From the NCBI RefSeq assembly GCF_013266755.1, contig NZ_JABRWJ010000014.1:1-64000 (forward strand): a DNA stretch of 64,000 nt, in the 5' to 3' direction. Shown one piece after another: positions 4,560-16,862 of this stretch (position 1 is its first letter; every line of letters begins with the position of its first letter). The notes below the pieces were generated by a model. That model was not told where the DNA came from. It saw only the letters and a list, made by a program, of their open reading frames with translations, and did no database searches. Position numbers and translations under genes: made by a program. This stretch comes from Pseudaquabacterium terrae (GTDB lineage: Bacteria; Pseudomonadota; Gammaproteobacteria; Burkholderiales; Burkholderiaceae_C).

Positions 4560-5966
4560 ATGGACGCCCTGATCCTGGCGCGCGTGCAGTTCGCGGCCAA
4601 CATCACCTTCCACATCCTGTTCCCGACGATCAGCATCGGATTGGGCTGGGTGCTGCTGTTCTTCCGCTGGCGCTGGCTGCGCACGCGGCGCGGCGCCAAC
4701 GCATTGCAGGCGCAGGGCTGGCTGGATGCCTACCGCTTCTGGACCAAGGTGTTCGCGCTGACCTTTGCGCTCGGCGTGGTCAGCGGCATCACGATGAGCT
4801 TCCAGTTCGGCACCAACTGGCCGGGCTTCATGGAGCGCGTGGGCAACATCGCCGGCCCGCTGCTGGGCTACGAGGTGCTGACGGCGTTCTTCCTCGAAGC
4901 CGGCTTCCTCGGCGTGATGCTGTTCGGCCACGGCAAGGTCAGCGAACGGGTGCACCTGATGTCCACCGCCTTCGTCGCCTTCGGCACGACACTGAGCGCG
5001 TTCTGGATCCTGGCGTTGAACTCGTGGATGCAGACCCCCGCCGGTCACGAGATCGTCGACGGCGTCTACCACGTCAAGAGCTGGTTCGACGTGGTCTTCA
5101 ACCCGTCGTTCCCGTACCGCTTCAGCCACATGGTGCTGGCCTCGGCGCTGACCTGCGCCTTCCTGCTGACGGGGCTGTCGGCGTGGCAGGTGCTGTCGGG
5201 CGTCGGCCAGCGCTCGGCGCCGCGCGTGATGCGCGCCGGCCTGACGCTGGCGGCCGTGCTGGTGCCGCTGCAGATCGTCGTCGGCGACCTGCATGGGCTG
5301 AACACGCTGCAGCACCAGCCGGCCAAGATCGCCGCAATGGAAGGCGTGTGGCAGACCGAGCGCGGCGCCCCGCTGCTGCTGTTCGCGATACCCGATCTGG
5401 CGCAGCGCAAGAACCACTACGAGATCGCGGTGCCGAAAGTCGCGAGCCTGATCCTGACGCACAAAGCCGATGGCGAGATCCGCGGCATGAACGACTTCCC
5501 CGGCGCGCACCCGCCGCCGCTGCCGGTGTTCTTCGCCTTCCGGATCATGGTCGGCACGGGGATGTTGATGCTCGGCACCAGCTGGCTGGGCTGGTGGCTG
5601 TACCGGCGCGCCGCGTGGCAACCGGCGCGGCTGCCGCGGCCGCTGCTGTGGCTCTTCGCCGGCATGGCGTTCTCGGGCTGGGTCGCGACGGTGGCCGGCT
5701 GGTACGTCACCGAGATCGGCCGCCAGCCCTACATCGTGCACGGCCTGGTGCTCACGGCCGACGTGGTCTCTGCCGTGCCGCCGTCGATGATCGGGCTCAG
5801 CCTGGCGCTGTATGTCGCGCTGTACCTGGGCCTGATCGTCGCCTACCTGGCGGTGCTGAAGTACATGGCCGAGAAGCCCGAGGAGGTGCTGCAGCGCGAG
5901 GCGGTGGAGCGGGCCGTCACGCCCGCCGGCGCGATCACCGCGCCGCTGGTCGAGGAAGGTGTGTGA
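4560..5966 (+). CDS. cioA: cytochrome bd ubiquinol oxidase subunit I (CIO type)
   Basis: Quinol-oxidising, haem-carrying subunit of a bd-type terminal oxidase in the inner membrane. At 468 residues it is shorter than E. coli CydA (about 520) and lacks the long Q-loop insert, as in CioA-type enzymes. H18 in the first helix is a likely haem ligand. The GWYVTEIGRQP motif near residue 380 is diagnostic, and the hydrophobic helices are regular. The last base of its stop codon is the first base of the cioB start (TGATG). No cydX, cydCD or cydR gene is adjacent. Confidence 0.92.
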   Translation: MDALILARVQFAANITFHILFPTISIGLGWVLLFFRWRWLRTRRGANALQAQGWLDAYRFWTKVFALTFALGVVSGITMSFQFGTNWPGFMERVGNIAGPLLGYEVLTAFFLEAGFLGVMLFGHGKVSERVHLMSTAFVAFGTTLSAFWILALNSWMQTPAGHEIVDGVYHVKSWFDVVFNPSFPYRFSHMVLASALTCAFLLTGLSAWQVLSGVGQRSAPRVMRAGLTLAAVLVPLQIVVGDLHGLNTLQHQPAKIAAMEGVWQTERGAPLLLFAIPDLAQRKNHYEIAVPKVASLILTHKADGEIRGMNDFPGAHPPPLPVFFAFRIMVGTGMLMLGTSWLGWWLYRRAAWQPARLPRPLLWLFAGMAFSGWVATVAGWYVTEIGRQPYIVHGLVLTADVVSAVPPSMIGLSLALYVALYLGLIVAYLAVLKYMAEKPEEVLQREAVERAVTPAGAITAPLVEEGV

Positions 5967-6970
5967 TGAGCGCAATGAGCTTCGACCAAGCCCTGCCGGT
6001 GATCTTCATGGCGCTGATGGGCGCCTCGATGCTGATCTACGTGGTCAGCGACGGCTACGACCTGGGCGTGGGCATGCTGATGCACCGGGCCACCGATGCC
6101 GAGAAGGACATCCTGGTGGCATCCATCGGCCCGTTCTGGGACGCCAACGAGACCTGGCTGGTGCTGGGCGTCGGCATCCTGCTGGTGGCCTTTCCGAAGG
6201 CACATGGCCTGGTGCTGGGCGAGCTGTACCTGCCGGTCGTGCTGATGCTGATCGGGCTGACCTTGCGCGGCGCGGCCTTCGACTTTCGCGTCAAGGCCAA
6301 GGACACGCACAAGCGCACCTGGGACCACCTGTTCTTCGCCGGCTCGACGCTGGCCTCGGTCGCCCAAGGCTGGATGCTGGGGCGCTACGTCAGCGGCTTC
6401 GGCAGCGGCTGGAACTACCCGCTGTTCGCGGGGGCGATCGCGCTGGCGCTGCCGATGGCCTACGTGCTGATGGGGGCCACCTGGCTGGTCATGAAGACCG
6501 ATGGCGAGCTGCAGCAGAAGGCGGTGCACTGGGCGCGCATCGCCTGGGCGCCGATGGTCGGCGGGCTGGTGCTGATCTCGATGGCCACGCCCTGGGTCAG
6601 CGCGACGGTGCGTGAGCGCTGGTTCACGCTGCCCGAGATCATCGCGTTGATGGCGATCCCGCTGACGACGCTGCTGGCGCTGCTGGCGGTGCGTGGCCTG
6701 CTGCACACGCGCTTCGTGCGCGGGCCGCTGTGCTGGATGCCCTTCGTGCTGCTGGTGGTGGTGTTCCTGCTCGGCTTCCTGGGCCTGGCCTACAGCATCT
6801 ACCCCTACGTGGTGATCGACCGCATGACGATCTGGCAGGCCGCCAGCAGCCCGGCGGCGCTGAAGGTGATCCTGGTCGGTGTGTTGATCGCGGTGCCGGC
6901 GATCGCGGGCTATACGATCTTTTCGTACCGCGTGTTCCGTGGCAAGACGGGGGAGCTGAAGTACGCGTGA
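5966..6970 (+). CDS. cioB: cytochrome bd ubiquinol oxidase subunit II
   Basis: Partner subunit of CioA. It is 334 residues with about eight or nine membrane helices, starting with the family pattern around YVVSDGYDLGVGML and containing GPFWDANETWLVL. The ATG at 5966 overlaps the cioA stop by one base, so the pair is almost certainly translationally coupled. The downstream binding-protein gene starts 65 bases later and is probably a separate unit. Confidence 0.92.
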   Translation: MSAMSFDQALPVIFMALMGASMLIYVVSDGYDLGVGMLMHRATDAEKDILVASIGPFWDANETWLVLGVGILLVAFPKAHGLVLGELYLPVVLMLIGLTLRGAAFDFRVKAKDTHKRTWDHLFFAGSTLASVAQGWMLGRYVSGFGSGWNYPLFAGAIALALPMAYVLMGATWLVMKTDGELQQKAVHWARIAWAPMVGGLVLISMATPWVSATVRERWFTLPEIIALMAIPLTTLLALLAVRGLLHTRFVRGPLCWMPFVLLVVVFLLGFLGLAYSIYPYVVIDRMTIWQAASSPAALKVILVGVLIAVPAIAGYTIFSYRVFRGKTGELKYA

Positions 6971-7035
6971 GCAGCCTTCAACGCATGACTCTTCATTCAC
7001 CCACTCGCCGCTTTGATCGGCGTACGGAGACAACG

Positions 7036-7953
7036 ATGGACTTTCGCGTTTGCATTCGTTATGGGGCCGTGGTTCTCGGCCTGCTGGCGATGGGATTCGC
7101 CGTGGCCCAGCCCCGGGCTGTCACCGAGGTCGCACCCTTCACCGGGACGCTGCAGAAGATCTACGAAACGGGCGTCATCCGCATCGGGCACCGCGAGAAC
7201 TCCCCACCGTTCGCGTTTCTCAACGCGCAGCGCCGACCCATCGGCTACTCGCTCGACCTGTGCGACGTGATCGTCGAACAGGTGGGCGAGCTGCTTCACC
7301 GCTCGCCGCGCGTCGAATACGTGCCGGTGAGCCCGAGCAACCGCTTCGACCTGGTCAACTCGGGCGCCGTCGATCTGGAATGCGGCTCGACGACGGCCAG
7401 CGCGGAGCGGCGCACGGTGTTCGACTTTTCGCCCGCCATCTTCATCACCGGTACCAAGCTGCTCGTCAAGCGCGGCAGCGGCATCCGTTCGCTGCGCGAC
7501 CTGCGGGGCAAGACCGTCGTGCTCACCAGCGGTACCGTGCACGCCGACACCGTGCCGCGGCTGGCGCAGCGCCAGAAGGTGGACATCCAGTTCGTGTTCG
7601 CGCCGGATCACGACGCGTCCTTCAAGATCCTGGCCGAAGGCAAGGCGGACGCCTTCGCGAACGACGACATCCAGCTCTACGGCGCGATCGCGCTGCGCAA
7701 TGCCGCCAGCGACTACCGCGTGGTGGGCGACTTCCTCACCTACGCGGACTACGCGCTGATGTTCCGGCGCGGCGATGCCGAGTTCGCCGAGGTGATCAAC
7801 CAGGCCTTCGAGCGCATGGCAGGCACCGGCGAGACCCGCGCGATCTATCGCCGGTGGTTCCAGCAGCGCTTGCCCGACGGTGCGAATCTCAACGTGCCGA
7901 TGAGCGCGCATCTGGAACACGTGTTCAAGCTGCAGGCGCTCTCGTCCGACTGA
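7036..7953 (+). CDS. periplasmic amino-acid-type solute-binding protein
   Basis: A 305-residue protein with an N-terminal signal peptide (about residues 1-25, ending near FAVAQ) and an SBP_bac_3-type body: GVIRIGHRENSPPF, then IGYSLDLCDVI, then DLECGSTTASAERR, then VVLTSGT. The DLECGSTT region resembles glutamate/aspartate binding proteins (GltI). The ATG at 7036 follows ACGGAGA. No permease or ATPase gene is nearby. The next two genes are a DctB-like kinase and a DctD-like regulator, so it may work as a ligand-sensing partner of the kinase rather than as a transporter part. That role is inference. Confidence 0.8.
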   Translation: MDFRVCIRYGAVVLGLLAMGFAVAQPRAVTEVAPFTGTLQKIYETGVIRIGHRENSPPFAFLNAQRRPIGYSLDLCDVIVEQVGELLHRSPRVEYVPVSPSNRFDLVNSGAVDLECGSTTASAERRTVFDFSPAIFITGTKLLVKRGSGIRSLRDLRGKTVVLTSGTVHADTVPRLAQRQKVDIQFVFAPDHDASFKILAEGKADAFANDDIQLYGAIALRNAASDYRVVGDFLTYADYALMFRRGDAEFAEVINQAFERMAGTGETRAIYRRWFQQRLPDGANLNVPMSAHLEHVFKLQALSSD

Positions 7954-7973
7954 CCTCCATAGTGGTCTTACTG

Positions 7974-9800
7974 ATGCCACCGGACCCCGCCCTGTGCGAT
8001 ACCCGTCCGATGACCTCAACGCCACCGGATGCCCGGGCAACCTCCCGGCGCCGCTGGCGCGGCCTGCCGCGCTGGTGCGCCGCGCTCGGCGCGGTGCTGC
8101 TGGCCGCCTGGATCGGCCACCAGGTGGCGCTGCAGACCGGCTTGTCGCGCCTGCGCGAAGCGGCAGCGCATCGGCTCGACATGCTCGCCACCGGGCTCGA
8201 AGCCGACCTGTCGCGTTTCGACTACCTGCCGGCGCTGCTGGAGATAACGCCCGTCATCCCCGCATTGCTGGACGGACCGGCCGACCCCACGCTGCGCGAT
8301 GCCGCCAACCGCACGCTGAACAGCGTCAGCGCCACCGTAGGCGCCGAGATGCTGTACGTGCTCGACGCGGGAGGCACGTCGCTGGCCGCGTCCGACTGGC
8401 AGGACAGCGGCACCACGATCGGCCAGGACCTGTCGTTCCGGCCCTACGTGACCGATGCCATCCGCCAGGGGCGCGGCCGCTTCTACGGCGTGGGCATCAC
8501 CAGCCGCCGGCCCGGCTACTACCTGTCGTATGCCCTGCGGCGCGGCGAGCGGCTGCGCGGCGTGGTCGCCGTCAAGGTCAACATCGAGGACGCTGAACGC
8601 CAGTGGCGCAACCTGCCCGGCGACGTGATGCTGATCGACGAGCGCGGCGTGGTGATCCTGTCGACGCGCGAGGACCTGAAGTACAGGCCGGTGGCGCCGC
8701 TGGAAGCCGGCCAGCGCGCCGAAGTGCAGCGGTCGCGGCCGTATGGCGAAGCGAGCCTGACGCCGCTGGACTGGGCCGCGCTGGAGGCGCCGGCCGCGAA
8801 TGCGCAACAGGTGGCGCTGGACCGCCGGCCGCACCTGGCCTCCACGCGCGCGCTGCAGCGCACGCCGTGGCGCCTGGTGGCGCTGGACGACCTGGCGCCG
8901 GTGCGTGCGGTGGCGCTCTACGCCGCCATCACGGCCGGCCTGGCGATGGCGGTGCTGGTGCTGGCCGGCGTCACGTTGTGGCAGCGCCAGCGCGCGGTGC
9001 GCCAGAAGCTGGCCAGCCAGGCCGCGCTGCAGGCGGCGCACGACAGCCTGGAAGCCACCGTGGTCGCGCGCACCGCCGAGCTGCGCGCGACGCAGGCCGA
9101 CCTGGTCCACGCCGGCAAGCTCGCCGCGCTGGGGCAGATGTCGGCCGGCATGGTGCACGAGCTGAACCAGCCGCTGACGGCGATGCGCACGCTCTCGGAG
9201 AACGCCGCCATCCTGCTCGAACAGGACCGGCGCGCCGACGTGCAGGGCAACCTGCGCCGCATCGCCGGCCTGGTCGACCGCCTGGCCCGGCTGACCTCGC
9301 GCCTGCGAACCTTTGCCCACAAGAGCGAGGCGCCGCCGGCCGCTGTGCCGCTGGCCCGCTGCATTGCCGACGCGCAGGCCCTCGTCGGTGCGGACCTGAA
9401 GTCCCGCGACATCGCCTTCGACAGCGACGTGCAGCCGCCCACACTGCAGGTGCTGGCCGACGAGGCGACGATGAGCAGCCTGCTGATCAACCTGTTCCGC
9501 AACGCCATCGATGCGATGCACGAGGCCCCGCAGCGCCGGCTCGAGGTGCGCGCGCGCGCCAGCGGCGAGCGCGTGCTGCTGACCGTCAGCGACAGCGGCC
9601 CCGGCATCCGCGCCGACATCCTGGCGCGCCTGTTCGAGCCCTTCGTCACCAGCAAGCCCGCGGGTGCGGGGCTGGGCCTGGGGCTCGTCATCTCGGCCCA
9701 GCTGGTGCGCGGCGTCGGCGGTACGCTGCGCGCTGCCAACCGGGCCGAAGGCGGGGCCTGTTTCACCGTCGACCTGCCCGGCGCGGACCCTGAGGAGTGA
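7974..9800 (+). CDS. DctB-family sensor histidine kinase
   Basis: Membrane sensor kinase of about 608 residues. After a basic N-terminus there is a first membrane helix, a roughly 270-residue periplasmic double-PAS (DctB/Cache-like) sensor region with TIGQDLSFRPY and YLSYALR, a second helix, a short coiled coil, then the phosphorylation motif GMVHELNQPLTAM with H395. N box (LINLFRNAIDAM), G1 (DSGPGI) and G2 (GLGLGLVIS) are intact. The start is uncertain: ATG 7974 and ATG 8010 are both in frame with weak ribosome-binding sites. It lies 7 bases before its regulator. DctB proteins sense C4-dicarboxylates; the neighbouring amino-acid-type binding protein suggests an acidic amino acid here. Confidence 0.88.
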   Translation: MPPDPALCDTRPMTSTPPDARATSRRRWRGLPRWCAALGAVLLAAWIGHQVALQTGLSRLREAAAHRLDMLATGLEADLSRFDYLPALLEITPVIPALLDGPADPTLRDAANRTLNSVSATVGAEMLYVLDAGGTSLAASDWQDSGTTIGQDLSFRPYVTDAIRQGRGRFYGVGITSRRPGYYLSYALRRGERLRGVVAVKVNIEDAERQWRNLPGDVMLIDERGVVILSTREDLKYRPVAPLEAGQRAEVQRSRPYGEASLTPLDWAALEAPAANAQQVALDRRPHLASTRALQRTPWRLVALDDLAPVRAVALYAAITAGLAMAVLVLAGVTLWQRQRAVRQKLASQAALQAAHDSLEATVVARTAELRATQADLVHAGKLAALGQMSAGMVHELNQPLTAMRTLSENAAILLEQDRRADVQGNLRRIAGLVDRLARLTSRLRTFAHKSEAPPAAVPLARCIADAQALVGADLKSRDIAFDSDVQPPTLQVLADEATMSSLLINLFRNAIDAMHEAPQRRLEVRARASGERVLLTVSDSGPGIRADILARLFEPFVTSKPAGAGLGLGLVISAQLVRGVGGTLRAANRAEGGACFTVDLPGADPEE

Positions 9801-9807
9801 AGACAAC

Positions 9808-11172
<1,365 letters not shown>

Positions 11173-11274
11173 TCCGGCCGGCGCCTTGCTCGGGTTCCGG
11201 TGGCGCTGCCAGACCGCTCGGCGCCCGAAGGGTCAATTCGCCCGCCAGCAGGCGCGCGACGCACACTGCAACCT

Positions 11275-11694: not shown

Positions 11695-12750
11695 GGAGAA
11701 GCGCTGGCGGGCATTCCTGTGAGGACTGCCCAGGCCGTAGGCGCTGATCCCATCGAGCCCCGTGCGCATTGCGCTGCGCGGGATGGCAGGATTCGACCTG
11801 CCAATGCCGCCGGCCGGCTGGCTACACGAAGCCAAACGGTGGACGAACGACGTTCCGCTCGACCAGCCGACGCGCCGATCGTCCGCTATGCAGCGTTGTC
11901 GGTCACTCGGGCGCGAAGGCCGAACTCACGCTGACTGCCATCAAGCAGTCGCCGGGCTCGGCGGCCGCGAACGGCACGAAGGTCAGCAGTACGAAGTACA
12001 GCGGTCGCAGGCCTCATGCGTGGCCCTCAGCGCCACACTGCTGACTCCTTCTCTCCGCCCCGAACTCGCGCTGCCGACCCATCAGCGACGCTCGCCACCT
12101 TGGGCTTGTCGCCCCAAAGCCGCCGCTCGCCCGGGTTGTTCGGACTCGTGCAAAGTCACCCGAAGGAAAGGTCATGCCGACTCGCGGTCGTGTGCGCCTG
12201 CATCGTCGCGCATTGAGCTGGTGGCTCCCGCCGACTAGCTTTCCGAGGGCCTTTGGTCAACGACACCGTGGGTGCGGTCGCTGCGCAACTGCTGTACGAC
12301 CTGTTCTCACGAGGCAGGTTGTGCAGACGGCGCTTTGATCAACCTCTCCAGCAAACGAGCTAGACCTATCGACGTCCACACCCAACGTGTAGGAGCGCTA
12401 CGGTCACGATCGGTCTAGCGTCCCGCGCAGTCAGCAGTCAGGCGGCGGGTCGCTGCCCCACGTGGTCGGCCTCTGCCGGTGGCCAAGCCTCGGCGTTCCC
12501 CAGACTTCGGCGCTCGCCTCGCGCAGTTGCGATGCGTCAGTTCGCCGATCGGCGAGACCAGCAACGCGAGCGAAGAGCAGTCGCAAGGAATTGCGGCCGC
12601 GGTCCGACGTCTTCAGGCCGAACGGCCGACGCTTGGTAAGCTATGACATGCTACCCCGGGGCCCAGGCCCGGTCCCGGTTGCCAACGGCTGAGCCGGTAG
12701 CGTGCCTACGGGTCTCGTCGGGTCCGAGCGTTTCTTGGGGTGCTGCCAAC
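11695..12750. other. non-coding stretch at the edge of the accessory zone
   Basis: About 1.05 kb without a credible gene. Open frames here have low-complexity or random translations and no ribosome-binding site. The bases look less G/C-biased and less codon-structured than the flanks, suggesting decayed DNA. The only clear structure is a 13-base inverted repeat at 12359-12419, listed separately. Confidence 0.5.
12359..12419. repeat. 13-base inverted repeat
   Basis: GCTAGACCTATCG (12359-12371) and CGATCGGTCTAGC (12407-12419) are reverse complements with one mismatch and a 35-base loop. It lies in non-coding DNA 330 bases before the TIR gene. It lacks integron attC core motifs, and no T-run follows it, so neither an attC site nor a simple terminator fits well. 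A recombination or regulatory site is possible. Confidence 0.5.
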
Positions 12751-14091
12751 ATGTCCGACAAGCCAGGGGTGTTCATCAGCCACATCCACGAGGACGGCAA
12801 ACTCGCGGTCGCACTTGAGACGTTCGTGCGAAAGACACTACTCGGGGCCGTCGCCGTCTTCAACTCCTCAAACCGTGAATCGATCGCCCCAGGCGATCCG
12901 TGGCGTGACCTGATCGTCCAGCACCTGCGAGCCTGCAAAGTCACGCTTGTCCTCGCCAGCGTCGAGAGCGTGCAGCGCCCCTGGATCAATTTCGAGAGCG
13001 GCGGTGCCTGGATCGCGGGCAACCGCGTGGTGCCCGTGTGCGTGCCTGGGCTCGCGCCCCTGGACTTGCCCGCACCGCTTGTTCACCTGCAGGCGGTCGA
13101 GCTCTCGAGTCAGGAATCGCTGCGGGACCTCATCCGCCAATTCGCAAACGTCTGCGCCCTCGAAGAGCCGCAGAACGTGGACTATGCTGGGGCAGCGCGA
13201 GAGTTCCGGCGCCTAGCGGACGAAGCCCGCGAGCCCAGGAACAAGATGGCGAACGTCTTCACCGAGGAGCGTGGCTACAAGTTCGACGATGCGCTCGCTC
13301 TGCTCAAGCACGCGATGAACGGGCACAACGTTTCCAAGTGGGGTGTGGCCGTTCCTCTGGTCGCAGGAAACTGCGATCTCATGGTCGGTTTTCGTTTCGG
13401 CGACAGTTTCCTTGGGGGACAAGCGCACTTTCTGCCTGGCTACGCGGTCGATGCGCAGAAGATGATCCATGTCCGGGTTCTGTCGGCACGCAGACCGAGG
13501 TCCCGCTTCGGCATGTTGTTCACCGAAGAACTCTGGGGCGCGATGAAGGCCGGCCCGGCCACAGGCGAATTACTGCGTTCTATCGTCAATCAACTCCTGA
13601 AAGACGGACTGCATCCTGACCATCCGATCGATCTGGACGATGTCTGTCGACGACTCAGGCGAACTCTCACCCTGGTCGACGAAGCTCACGTGCCGGGAAG
13701 CGGCTACCGGTCGGACATCGGCACCGTCATCTGCCTGCTGGGCCACGACCTCGTCTTGACGACGGACGGCATTAAGCACATTCGACTCAGAGATTCCGAG
13801 GCGATCCCAATCTACGGTCTCTTTGAAAGAGCTGGACTCGCCCTCAAGCCTGATCGGCTGGCCTCGCGGCATGACTATTTCGCTGTTAGCGAATTCGCCG
13901 GCCACCCTGAACTGGCGCAAGCGGTTGCGGCTGTCCGCCTGCTCTATTCAACAGGGTTCCTGCAGGGGCTGCTCGACGTAGACCTCGAACGCGAAAGCCA
14001 CGCGGGTCCCTTCGCCGGGATCAAGATCGACCGGGTGCGTCGAAGATCGACGAAGAGCAAGCCACGCCCCTCGGGAGGCAAGAGCTCATAG
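12751..14091 (+). CDS. TIR-domain protein with unknown C-terminal region
   Basis: A 446-residue cytoplasmic protein. Residues 5-120 fit a bacterial TIR domain: the start GVFISHIHED matches the first strand. A GDPWRDLIVQHL helix follows, then the strand TLVLASVES, then WINFESGGAW. In the last, W78 and E82 form the WxxxE pattern that carries the catalytic glutamate of TIR NADases. Residues about 165-420 match nothing I recognise. They may be a ligand-sensing or effector region and end in a basic tail. The ATG at 12751 gives a domain start typical of TIR proteins. It converges with a DUF262-HEPN pair. A defence role (NAD depletion or cyclic-ADPR signalling) is inferred. Confidence 0.75.
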   Translation: MSDKPGVFISHIHEDGKLAVALETFVRKTLLGAVAVFNSSNRESIAPGDPWRDLIVQHLRACKVTLVLASVESVQRPWINFESGGAWIAGNRVVPVCVPGLAPLDLPAPLVHLQAVELSSQESLRDLIRQFANVCALEEPQNVDYAGAAREFRRLADEAREPRNKMANVFTEERGYKFDDALALLKHAMNGHNVSKWGVAVPLVAGNCDLMVGFRFGDSFLGGQAHFLPGYAVDAQKMIHVRVLSARRPRSRFGMLFTEELWGAMKAGPATGELLRSIVNQLLKDGLHPDHPIDLDDVCRRLRRTLTLVDEAHVPGSGYRSDIGTVICLLGHDLVLTTDGIKHIRLRDSEAIPIYGLFERAGLALKPDRLASRHDYFAVSEFAGHPELAQAVAAVRLLYSTGFLQGLLDVDLERESHAGPFAGIKIDRVRRRSTKSKPRPSGGKSS

Positions 14092-14437
14092 GGTCTTGTT
14101 GGACGACCACCGCGATTCGACCCGTCGTCTGAACGACGACCTGCCCGTCAGATCACGCGCTCAGCCGCCGCCGACAGCTGTGTTGGACAGCAGTGGGTCG
14201 CGAGCTTGCATCCAGCGCCCGGAAGCAGCTATCGTCGAGCGGCAGGTCATGCCCGCCCATAGTGAGTTGCCCACGGGGCGCAGTTGGATGCCGGACGACT
14301 GCTCCTTGAGGCCGCGGTCGGCCCAACTCGACCAGTAGCAGACTTCGCAATCCGCGGATGCGTTGCGCGAAAGCAGACGCTATAGCAAAGTCGCACAAAG
14401 TCATTGGCCCGGCGAAACCGCAAAACTCACGTCAACG
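14092..14437. other. non-coding gap between convergent genes
   Basis: About 345 bases between the stops of the TIR gene and the HEPN gene. It contains a small perfect hairpin, CGTCGT-ctga-ACGACG (14123-14138), 30 bases after the TIR stop, which could help terminate that transcript although no T-run follows. Nothing else is recognisable. Confidence 0.5.
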
Positions 14438-14905
14438 TCAAGGTTCGACCAGACTTGCTACGTGTTCGATAACCTCGTTGACTACGGCGTAGTGCTTGCG
14501 GATTTGCGAAAGGCTCGTCCCTACAGACTCACCGTGCGCGATCTTGTGTCGGAGCGCGACGAGACTATTCACACTGTCCTTTCGTTCATCAATCAGGTAA
14601 CCCGCCAAGTCATCTCGCCAGCTTTGACTGAAGGCACCGAATAGGTCGATGATCTTTTCCGACTTCGGGTTGGTCCACGGGCCAAGTTGTCTCTCGACAA
14701 AGGACGCAATCTCTGGGGCGCAACGCACCTGCGCGTATGCGAGGAGAAGTGCGCATAGGCAGCTTTCAAGATACCCCGACACGAGAACGCAGAGGTACTT
14801 CGCAAAGTCAGCTTGAAGTTCTATATCTGAGGTCGAGTCCGGCGCTCGTCCAAAGGTTGCGTCTAACCGCGTCCTTAGGCGGTGGACTACATGTCGGCCA
14901 CTCAT
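14438..14905 (-). CDS. HEPN-domain protein, putative RNase
   Basis: A 155-residue all-helical protein. The motif RHKIAH at residues 119-124 is the Rx4-6H signature of HEPN ribonucleases. The arginine and histidine that form the active site are both present, inside the expected C-terminal helix. The segment around FAKYLCVLVSGYLESC is typical of the RiboL-PSP-HEPN branch. Its ATG overlaps the stop of the upstream DUF262 gene (ATGA), so the two are translationally coupled. The likely role is RNA cleavage controlled by the DUF262 partner in an anti-phage or toxin-like system. Family assignment is from motifs; the target RNA is unknown. Confidence 0.75.
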   Translation of the reverse strand: MSGRHVVHRLRTRLDATFGRAPDSTSDIELQADFAKYLCVLVSGYLESCLCALLLAYAQVRCAPEIASFVERQLGPWTNPKSEKIIDLFGAFSQSWRDDLAGYLIDERKDSVNSLVALRHKIAHGESVGTSLSQIRKHYAVVNEVIEHVASLVEP

Positions 14906-16023
14906 TTGACGGCGGAAAAAGCCGCACGCGTCGCATCGAGACGCTTCTTCACAAAATCCTCGTCGGCGGTTGACCGTGTGATCCAGGTGGTGAAGTCGCC
15001 GCTCTTGAAGAGGCCTTCATAGGCTGCGCGCATCCCTGTGGAATCGGAAATGGGGCTGCCGGTGGCTAGGCGATTCGCGACGCCGATCATGATCGAGTCC
15101 ACGAGTGCCGCGTTCACTGTGTTTTTCAAGCGGAACGCGCGCGGGCCAAGATGCTGATGGATAGCCGCAACCGTTGACTCGAAGATGGGGCGCAACTCGT
15201 TGTCACCGTGTTTCTGCAAATCGACGTTTGACGCCATATACCGATTGAGAAACTCCTTCATCGGCCTACGGTACTGTGGCGCGTGGAAGTGCAACGCGAA
15301 GAACCGAAGAATTAGTTCGAGGTCCTTGAGGCGTGCGCTCTTCTTGCCATAGAGAGCACGCCAAGACCCATTTGCGTTTAGATTTCCGAGGAGCGATGCG
15401 AACTTCCCGTGGTACAGGGCGACGCGAATCTCTTGAGGCTGCAAGAAGATGCCGCCGGAGTTTAGGCGCTCAAAGACCAAGTAGATGCTACTTTGATCGT
15501 CCGAAGGTTCATCCTGACGCACTATGGTTGCATGGATGATGCTGTCGTCGAGGCGCCTGCGGTCATCGACGTCTAACGTCTTGTAGCTGCGGTCCTTCCA
15601 CTTCTCTTGGACGTGCTGCAGTAGAAATTCTTTGCCTTGAAAGAGCCCAGAATAGAAGTACTGAAGCGTCTTGAGGCGTTGCTGCCCATCAAGCACAAGA
15701 TGTTTGCCCGAGGCCTCCTTTACAAGAAAGATGCCCGGCACCGGCAGTCCAAGCAGTAGCGACTCGACAAACCGATCGCATTGCGGTTTGGTCCAAACAA
15801 ACTCCCGCTGAAAGCCAACGGTTGACTGACCCGCCTCTGGAGCATTGCTGAACAGCGGCACAGCTATGTCGTTCTGGTCCAGCCTCTTCACCAACCCATC
15901 GACCGGGTAGTCCGCACCGTACGAAGTGATGGAGTAGGCCGTGGGAATGACTTCGTTGATCTCGTCAAGATCCTCGACCTCTACTTCGTCGGTGATGGAG
16001 ATCGGCGTGTCTTCTTCGGCCAT
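14902..16023 (-). CDS. DUF262 (ParB-like) domain protein
   Basis: A 373-residue protein with an acidic N-terminal 30 residues, then a DUF262 domain. Two hallmark motifs are present: FQREFVW (residues 71-77) and DGQQR (112-116), the latter in LVLDGQQRLKTL. DUF262 is the nucleotide-using ParB/sulfiredoxin-fold half of GmrSD type IV restriction proteins. Here the usual DUF1524 HNH nuclease half is absent, and a coupled HEPN protein takes its place. The ATG at 16023 follows AGAGG; an in-frame ATG at 16059 would add 12 residues. The long helical C-terminal part (about 200-373) is unassigned. A two-gene immune module is inferred. Confidence 0.8.
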   Translation of the reverse strand: MAEEDTPISITDEVEVEDLDEINEVIPTAYSITSYGADYPVDGLVKRLDQNDIAVPLFSNAPEAGQSTVGFQREFVWTKPQCDRFVESLLLGLPVPGIFLVKEASGKHLVLDGQQRLKTLQYFYSGLFQGKEFLLQHVQEKWKDRSYKTLDVDDRRRLDDSIIHATIVRQDEPSDDQSSIYLVFERLNSGGIFLQPQEIRVALYHGKFASLLGNLNANGSWRALYGKKSARLKDLELILRFFALHFHAPQYRRPMKEFLNRYMASNVDLQKHGDNELRPIFESTVAAIHQHLGPRAFRLKNTVNAALVDSIMIGVANRLATGSPISDSTGMRAAYEGLFKSGDFTTWITRSTADEDFVKKRLDATRAAFSAVK

Positions 16024-16238
16024 GTTGTGCCTCTGGTTCGTAAGTAGCCGATTGTGCACCGCGCATGCTGAAAGCGGACCTTGAAGACCCCCCGCTCATG
16101 GCCGAGTCCGCAAGTTCGCCTGCCTACTCGGAAGCTGACCTCCGGCGCTCGCCCGACCCGCTGCGTTAGGCTAAATTGGCGCTTGCCCCGGCAACCGAGG
16201 CGCATCCTTGTTGGCCCTCAACTCGATGGGAGACCATC

Positions 16239-16862
16239 ATGGGTGCCGCAAGCAATGCCGTTCGTCGCGAGCCATGGAACAAGGGCAAGCTCGTTGGGCA
16301 GAAGGCGCCGTTCAAGCTCAAGGACATTTGGGCTCTGCGCGTCCGACTGCAGATGGAAGCTCGGGTTCGCGAACTGGCCCTCTTCAACCTCGCCATCGAC
16401 AGCAAGTTGCGCGGATGTGACCTGGTCGGCCTCAAGGTCCGGGACGTGTGCCACGGCGACCAGGTGGCCGCCCGCGCCATCGTCGTCCAGCACAAGACCC
16501 AACGCCCAGGCCAGTTCGAGATCACGCCGGCCGCCCGAGACGCCGTACAAGCGTTGATCAAGCTCGCTGGGCTGAAGCCGGAGGACTTCCTGTTCCCCAG
16601 CCGGCTCCACGACTCGCCTCATCTTGGTACCCGTCAGTACGCCAGGATCCTTGGGCACTGGGTCGACGAACTGGGACTGGACCGTGCCGACTACGGGACG
16701 CACTCGCTGCGACGGACGAAGGCGACGCTGATCTACCGGCGCACCAAGAACCTTCGCGCCGTGCAACTGCTCCTTGGGCACTCCAAGCTGGAGTCGACGG
16801 TGAGGTACCTCGGCATCGAGGTCGATGACGCCCTCGAGATCTCGGAGCAGACAGAAATCTGA
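16239..16862 (+). CDS. minimal tyrosine recombinase/integrase
   Basis: A 207-residue protein that is nearly only the catalytic domain of a tyrosine recombinase. The pentad is complete: R58 (SKLRGCDL), K86 (HKTQRP), H155-x2-R158 (THSLRRT), H181 (LLGHSKLE) and Y190 (VRYLGI). There is no N-terminal SAM-like core-binding domain, only about 50 basic residues (REPWNKGKLVGQ). I recall similar short integrases scattered in many proteobacterial genomes. The ATG at 16239 follows GGGAGA. It transcribes away from the DUF262 gene, 215 bases away, and may have brought in or rearranged the defence-like genes beside it. No att repeats were found. Confidence 0.85.
   Translation: MGAASNAVRREPWNKGKLVGQKAPFKLKDIWALRVRLQMEARVRELALFNLAIDSKLRGCDLVGLKVRDVCHGDQVAARAIVVQHKTQRPGQFEITPAARDAVQALIKLAGLKPEDFLFPSRLHDSPHLGTRQYARILGHWVDELGLDRADYGTHSLRRTKATLIYRRTKNLRAVQLLLGHSKLESTVRYLGIEVDDALEISEQTEI

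Follow-up and report, generated by a model that had tools for sequence, protein, structure and literature searches.

GmrSD, BrxU, SspE and GrwAB share a DUF262 domain with the motifs QR, DGQQR and FxxxN, and they are described with a DUF1524 nuclease that acts on DNA (PMC10952713, PMC12137116). The three motifs are those named for DUF262 in the passages on this domain in PMC12137116. Menshen (PMC10952713) and ptuXYZ (PMC11980606) contain a DUF262 protein without DUF1524 that is coupled to other effector genes, described as those for an OLD or P-loop ATPase together with additional partners; in the ptuXYZ operon, the DUF262 protein is joined with a protein of ribonuclease (RNase) fold (PMC11980606). 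A third arrangement is represented by PD-T4-2 from Escherichia coli ECOR65, the deletion of which greatly raised plaquing of T4 and which also defends in K-12 (PMC9519451). The entries for PD-T4-2 in PMC10952713 place it under both DUF262 and the HEPN family PF18735. A survey of HEPN domains from 2013 lists Ribo L-PSP-HEPN as "operon with ParB" (PMC3710099, Table 1), where the entry is a genomic observation that carries neither a system name nor a test. Here we describe a locus in a 64,000-nucleotide stretch of Pseudaquabacterium terrae (contig NZ_JABRWJ010000014.1, positions 1 to 64,000 of the forward strand, referred to as the window), in which a DUF262 gene is followed directly by a HEPN gene. 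It shares the HEPN family and the type of operon partner (ParB-like/DUF262) with the 2013 entry, and it differs from Menshen and ptuXYZ in that the partner of the DUF262 protein is a HEPN protein. We consider it probable that the two genes constitute a mobile anti-phage module of the PD-T4-2 kind, composed of a nucleoside triphosphate (NTP)-dependent sensor and an RNase.

An earlier note on this DNA, made from the sequence alone, had proposed a likely defence module comprising a TIR gene with an intact WxxxE motif and a DUF262 gene whose stop overlaps the start of a HEPN gene with a complete RHKIAH motif, next to a tyrosine recombinase gene. Open reading frames and a Pfam scan located all four genes where the note had placed them:

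14902 to 16023, minus strand: DUF262 (GmrSD_N) protein of 373 amino acids, predicted NTP-dependent sensor or switch; PF03235 at 7.3e-26.
14438 to 14905, minus strand: HEPN protein of 155 amino acids, predicted RNase; PF18735 at 5.8e-16, with the RHKIAH motif.
12751 to 14091, plus strand: TIR protein of 446 amino acids; PF13676 (TIR_2) at 1.3e-10, convergent with the DUF262-HEPN pair and judged to lie outside it.
16239 to 16862, plus strand: tyrosine recombinase of 207 amino acids, member of a common plasmid family; PF00589 at 4.9e-17, a neighbour judged to lie outside the pair.

The stop of the DUF262 gene, whose coordinates are counted from its own ATG, and the start of the HEPN gene overlap by 4 bases. 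All three motifs are intact in the DUF262 protein, as FQREFVW, DGQQR and FERLN, and a sequence search of solved structures with a DUF262 profile retrieved 7p9k and 7p9m (the latter BrxU) at 1.2e-10 and SspE at 0.0016. An AlphaFold model of the protein built on five sequences reached a mean predicted local distance difference test (pLDDT) value of 51.9; its fold search against PDB gave no match at E ≤ 0.001, with BrxU at rank 22 and E 3.4, and the model was not used as evidence. In the HEPN protein, RHKIAH occupies residues 119-124, and both R119 and H124 are invariant in a close alignment of 11 rows; with the HEPN profile, the search of solved structures produced weak matches, the best at 0.098. 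Pfam detected DUF1524 neither in the DUF262 protein, for which PF03235 is the only match, nor in its neighbour, which matches HEPN families. Where GmrSD, BrxU, SspE and GrwAB have a DUF1524 nuclease, the window pair has a HEPN gene. The earlier proposal that DUF262 and HEPN form one unit with HEPN in place of this nuclease is supported.

The nearest relatives of the DUF262 protein, with best segments 56-81% identical, are found in Aquariibacter albus, a Burkholderiales metagenome-assembled genome (MAG), Burkholderia turbans and a Spirochaetia MAG. The gene order and the 4-base overlap with the HEPN gene are the same in all four; one of the HEPN frames, that of the Spirochaetia MAG, is broken before the motif. 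Among plasmids, 103 records contain a DUF262 relative. An annotated HEPN gene follows directly downstream in eight of the nine plasmids opened, which belong to Arthrobacter, Rhodococcus, Kocuria, Hymenobacter, E. coli (two), Exiguobacterium and Phaeobacter; in the ninth, pAB1 (L073), the partner is an unannotated HEPN-like frame lacking R[NHS]xx[AVI]H. When 19 partners were examined as a set with Pfam, 18 matched PF18735.

The directly downstream partner is HEPN-like in 81 of the 102 DUF262 relatives kept, a share that leans upwards because the viral search was seeded with an alignment of HEPN-partnered rows. These partners comprise 36 short HEPN proteins, 41 longer ones and four that are HEPN-like by motif only; the remaining rows have an AAA/NsnB partner (10) or another one (8) or end at an edge (3). 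Labels were assigned at a cut-off of 20 bits, to which some of the longer HEPN proteins come near (26-35 bits), and the HEPN profiles derive from partners belonging to the counted rows. The rows, selected by DUF262 similarity, are what remained of 139 DUF262-matching loci after removal of four other copies of the window locus, eight viral near-copies and 25 loci weaker than 1e-40. Besides the eight rows with another partner, those that count against the reading are 7 of the 77 labelled HEPN partners (L005, L015, L073, L104, L128, L152 and L156), in which the motif R[NHS]xx[AVI]H, a narrower pattern than RxxxxH, is missing; L015 carries RGLLAH, outside the searched pattern, and the HEPN match of L005 changes frame for its second part. 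In a quick tree of the 102 DUF262 proteins, the window protein groups with three of its closest relatives, L002-L004 (support 99, starred), inside a group of 12 rows (97, starred), 11 with a HEPN partner and one at an edge. The AAA-partnered proteins make up one group (96, starred). Altogether, the partner types (two HEPN groups and the AAA ATPase) cluster on the tree, with 14 label changes versus a shuffled mean of 49.8. DUF262 relatives also occur in 20 phage records; three were opened, and a downstream partner is present in Peduovirus P24B2 (L092) and in Vibrio phage 10N.286.55.A5_PE003 (L093), where it is annotated as RiboL-PSP-HEPN.

The PADLOC models PD-T4-2_A and PD-T4-2_B hit neighbouring genes in L036 (6.3e-159 and 1.3e-62) and in E. 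coli MDR_56 (2.3e-162 and 7.9e-64), and the second gene of the MDR_56 pair is above the PF18735 cut-off. PD-T4-2 is therefore itself a DUF262-HEPN pair, and in it, as in the window pair, a HEPN gene of family PF18735 with RxxxxH stands directly behind the DUF262 gene. The match of the window DUF262 protein to PD-T4-2_A (5.8e-45) takes in most of the length, positions 58-362 of 363. On the DUF262 tree, PD-T4-2 falls on the side of the window in a group of 39 rows, with a Shimodaira-Hasegawa-like approximate likelihood ratio test (SH-aLRT) value of 91, not starred. A profile-profile comparison between window-type and PD-T4-2_B-type HEPN proteins gave a probability of 82.8% and an E-value of 9.3e-6, and the plasmid HEPN protein L071, which stands on the same tree side as the window, matches a PD-T4-2_B model at 4.4e-4. 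As a side observation, the MDR_56 pair (L090:3931-6808) is flanked by phage polarity suppression and ogr/Delta-like genes, which we take to be P4-like, and by an integrase beside ssrA. Among 5426 E. coli genomes, 17 match the DUF262 part of the query, and the locus was opened in one of them.

Several findings count against a PD-T4-2-like defence role. The window DUF262 protein is only 28% identical to E. coli PD-T4-2_A, and the NsnA model (1.2e-57) outscores PD-T4-2_A on it with 194 versus 152 bits. A long branch (1.46) leads to the PD-T4-2 group, whose placement has an SH-aLRT value of just 91. None of the PADLOC PD-T4-2_B models matches the window HEPN protein at E up to 0.1, and they likewise miss the HEPN proteins of L002 and L041 (E up to 0.01) and of L070 (E up to 0.1); in E. 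coli the HEPN protein has 167 amino acids versus 155 in the window. Moreover, the frames around the pair look like ordinary chromosomal genes with no evident defence island among the seven proteins scanned with Pfam, and a biochemical study of any DUF262-HEPN pair was not found among the papers listed from the open-licence literature. As the window HEPN protein has no PD-T4-2_B match, we regard the locus as the same kind of pair and not as PD-T4-2 in the narrow PADLOC sense, which asks for a second gene matching PD-T4-2_B. Judged from sequence comparison, the window pair is a divergent relative of PD-T4-2. This kinship with a tested system speaks for the defence role that the earlier note had considered likely, while its view that the set was undescribed does not hold for the pair, since PD-T4-2 is a tested system of DUF262 and HEPN. 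The pair, whose second gene PADLOC does not recognize, belongs to a broad DUF262-HEPN class, which in this analysis spans several phyla and has PD-T4-2 as its tested member.

HEPN RNases are dimeric, metal-independent enzymes. In the mechanism that we favour for the window pair, the DUF262 protein would bind and hydrolyse NTPs and detect some mark of infection; as for GmrSD, BrxU and GrwAB, this would most likely be modified phage DNA. It would then release or activate the HEPN protein, which would cut RNA so that phage production stops. We propose sensing by DUF262 and release of the HEPN RNase because of the analogy with known DUF262 systems, namely the shared motifs and the example of ptuXYZ. 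If this mechanism is true, DUF262 would be a general infection switch that is coupled to RNA cutting as well as to DNA cutting.

An unlikely alternative is a toxin-antitoxin or addiction module, in which the HEPN RNase is a toxin neutralized by the DUF262 protein and the pair serves mainly to maintain the mobile DNA that carries it. The layout of two overlapping genes with the predicted RNase in second place would suit such a module, as would the many plasmid records with DUF262 relatives and the presence of the pair on an E. coli plasmid of 3.9 kilobases (kb). However, the DUF262 protein is large and has conserved NTP-handling motifs, unlike a small antitoxin, and a related pair protects against T4. 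The two roles are compatible with each other.

Far less probable is a single three-gene system of TIR, DUF262 and HEPN with the TIR protein as second effector or signal maker. The TIR gene adjoins the pair. Its frame extends from 12643 to 14091 on the plus strand with a likely ATG start at 12751, and the protein has a TIR_2 match above the Pfam cut-off and an intact WxxxE motif (WINFE). However, the gene is convergent with the pair, and its GC content (guanine plus cytosine) differs from that of the pair by 6-7 points. In a search with a TIR profile, no TIR gene was found beside the four closest pairs (L002-L005, 8-kb flanks), in nine plasmid loci or in 19 of 20 wider DUF262 loci, nor in the phage, E. 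coli and viral loci; this profile, derived from relatives of the window TIR domain, could overlook distant groups of TIR proteins, and the flanks are short at many loci. The partner is HEPN-like in 18 of the 20 wider regions and of another type in two, and several of these regions are cut by contig ends.

The only hint of a link between TIR and DUF262-HEPN is L163:4401-7086 (minus strand), where a TIR gene lies directly upstream of the pair on the same strand. In that protein the TIR domain occupies residues 94-196, and the HEPN protein is of the longer type with 223 amino acids, just below the PF18735 cut-off. Should the TIR protein and the pair act jointly after all, which we think most improbable, a NAD-directed effector and an RNase would stand under one infection sensor, and the distant locus L163 would represent a second, independent joining of this kind. 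Because TIR is missing from the four closest pairs and its sole other occurrence is beside a longer HEPN, we conclude that the TIR gene is probably outside the DUF262-HEPN module and came to lie in the same acquired stretch by chance. The earlier note had suggested that co-occurrence be checked in homologous loci: the pair clearly recurs, whereas among the loci examined the three genes almost never occur together. Its interpretation is thus supported for the DUF262-HEPN unit and its likely defence role but not for the novelty of the pair or for TIR as an effector of the module. The pair is real and of an ordinary kind, and a mobile defence pair beside an unrelated TIR gene explains it well.

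A reduced Menshen system, NsnA without NsnB and NsnC, can be all but dismissed: NsnA, which we take to be the Menshen protein, scores highest among the PADLOC models on the window DUF262 protein, but the downstream gene encodes a HEPN protein and not an NsnB-matching AAA ATPase, and the AAA-partnered DUF262 proteins form their own group on the tree. Menshen proper was rejected on the same gene, as NsnB-type partners are AAA proteins. A literature search for the term NsnA yielded only unrelated papers among the matches listed. GmrSD type IV restriction was discarded with no DUF1524 match in Pfam, fused or adjacent. Thoeris was also rejected, as the ThsB models match weakly (best 3.3e-5) and no ThsA-like protein is among the other six that were scanned from 11.2 to 19.9 kb. 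The AAA partner agrees with the description of Menshen in PMC10952713.

The two genes of the pair differ in base composition from their surroundings. GC content is 54.7% in the HEPN gene and 55.4% in the DUF262 gene, well below the 69.2% of the window, so that the pair is foreign in composition, consistent with a gain from elsewhere as the earlier note had supposed; the TIR and recombinase genes have 61.7% and 63.8%. The low coding density noted for the surroundings was also found, as no frame between about 11.7 and 12.6 kb passes a codon-composition filter. An Rfam scan of 10.5-18.0 kb gave no match. A scan for promoters and terminators, which was not used for conclusions, found one promoter versus a shuffled mean of 0.9 and eight terminators versus 3.7. 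In a comparison over 19 kb, the left flank from 5662 to 11177 is 92% identical to a same-genus genome, and synteny ends at 11177, just past a response-regulator gene. On another contig of that genome lie a UPF0047 gene, a counterpart of a 208-base stretch of the window and the recombinase; since other open frames separate the last two, no clean empty site is shown. No convincing gene lies in the stretch itself (11874-12081, about 208 bases). An 83% copy of it is present on contig C13 of the P. terrae genome, and its match in the same-genus genome is 86% identical and about 4 kb from the recombinase relative.

The TIR protein was matched in 10 of 399 genomes of the order, its own included, and all matches beyond its own locus fall within residues 1-148. 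Over the TIR domain, relatives were found in four plasmid and three phage records and in one viral contig. In a search of 398 genomes of the phylum, the C-terminal part (residues 161-446; window positions 13231-14091) was matched in none but its own, and it has no match in Pfam or PHROGs. The best hit of the TIR protein in the sequence search of solved structures was at 0.048, and an AlphaFold model without alignment (mean pLDDT 34.7) was not used as evidence. Two more weak TIR matches, 25-28% identical to the window TIR domain, are present in the same genome (C4:23658-23927 and C3:29570-29911; L088 and L089).

The recombinase gene ends at 16862 and starts at 16239 if read as annotated in two plasmid relatives. 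Its family is widespread, with 1337 matching plasmid records and about 85% identity in the best full-length rows listed. The neighbours of its relatives on two opened plasmids are unrelated, and the gene looks like an unrelated passenger beside the pair.

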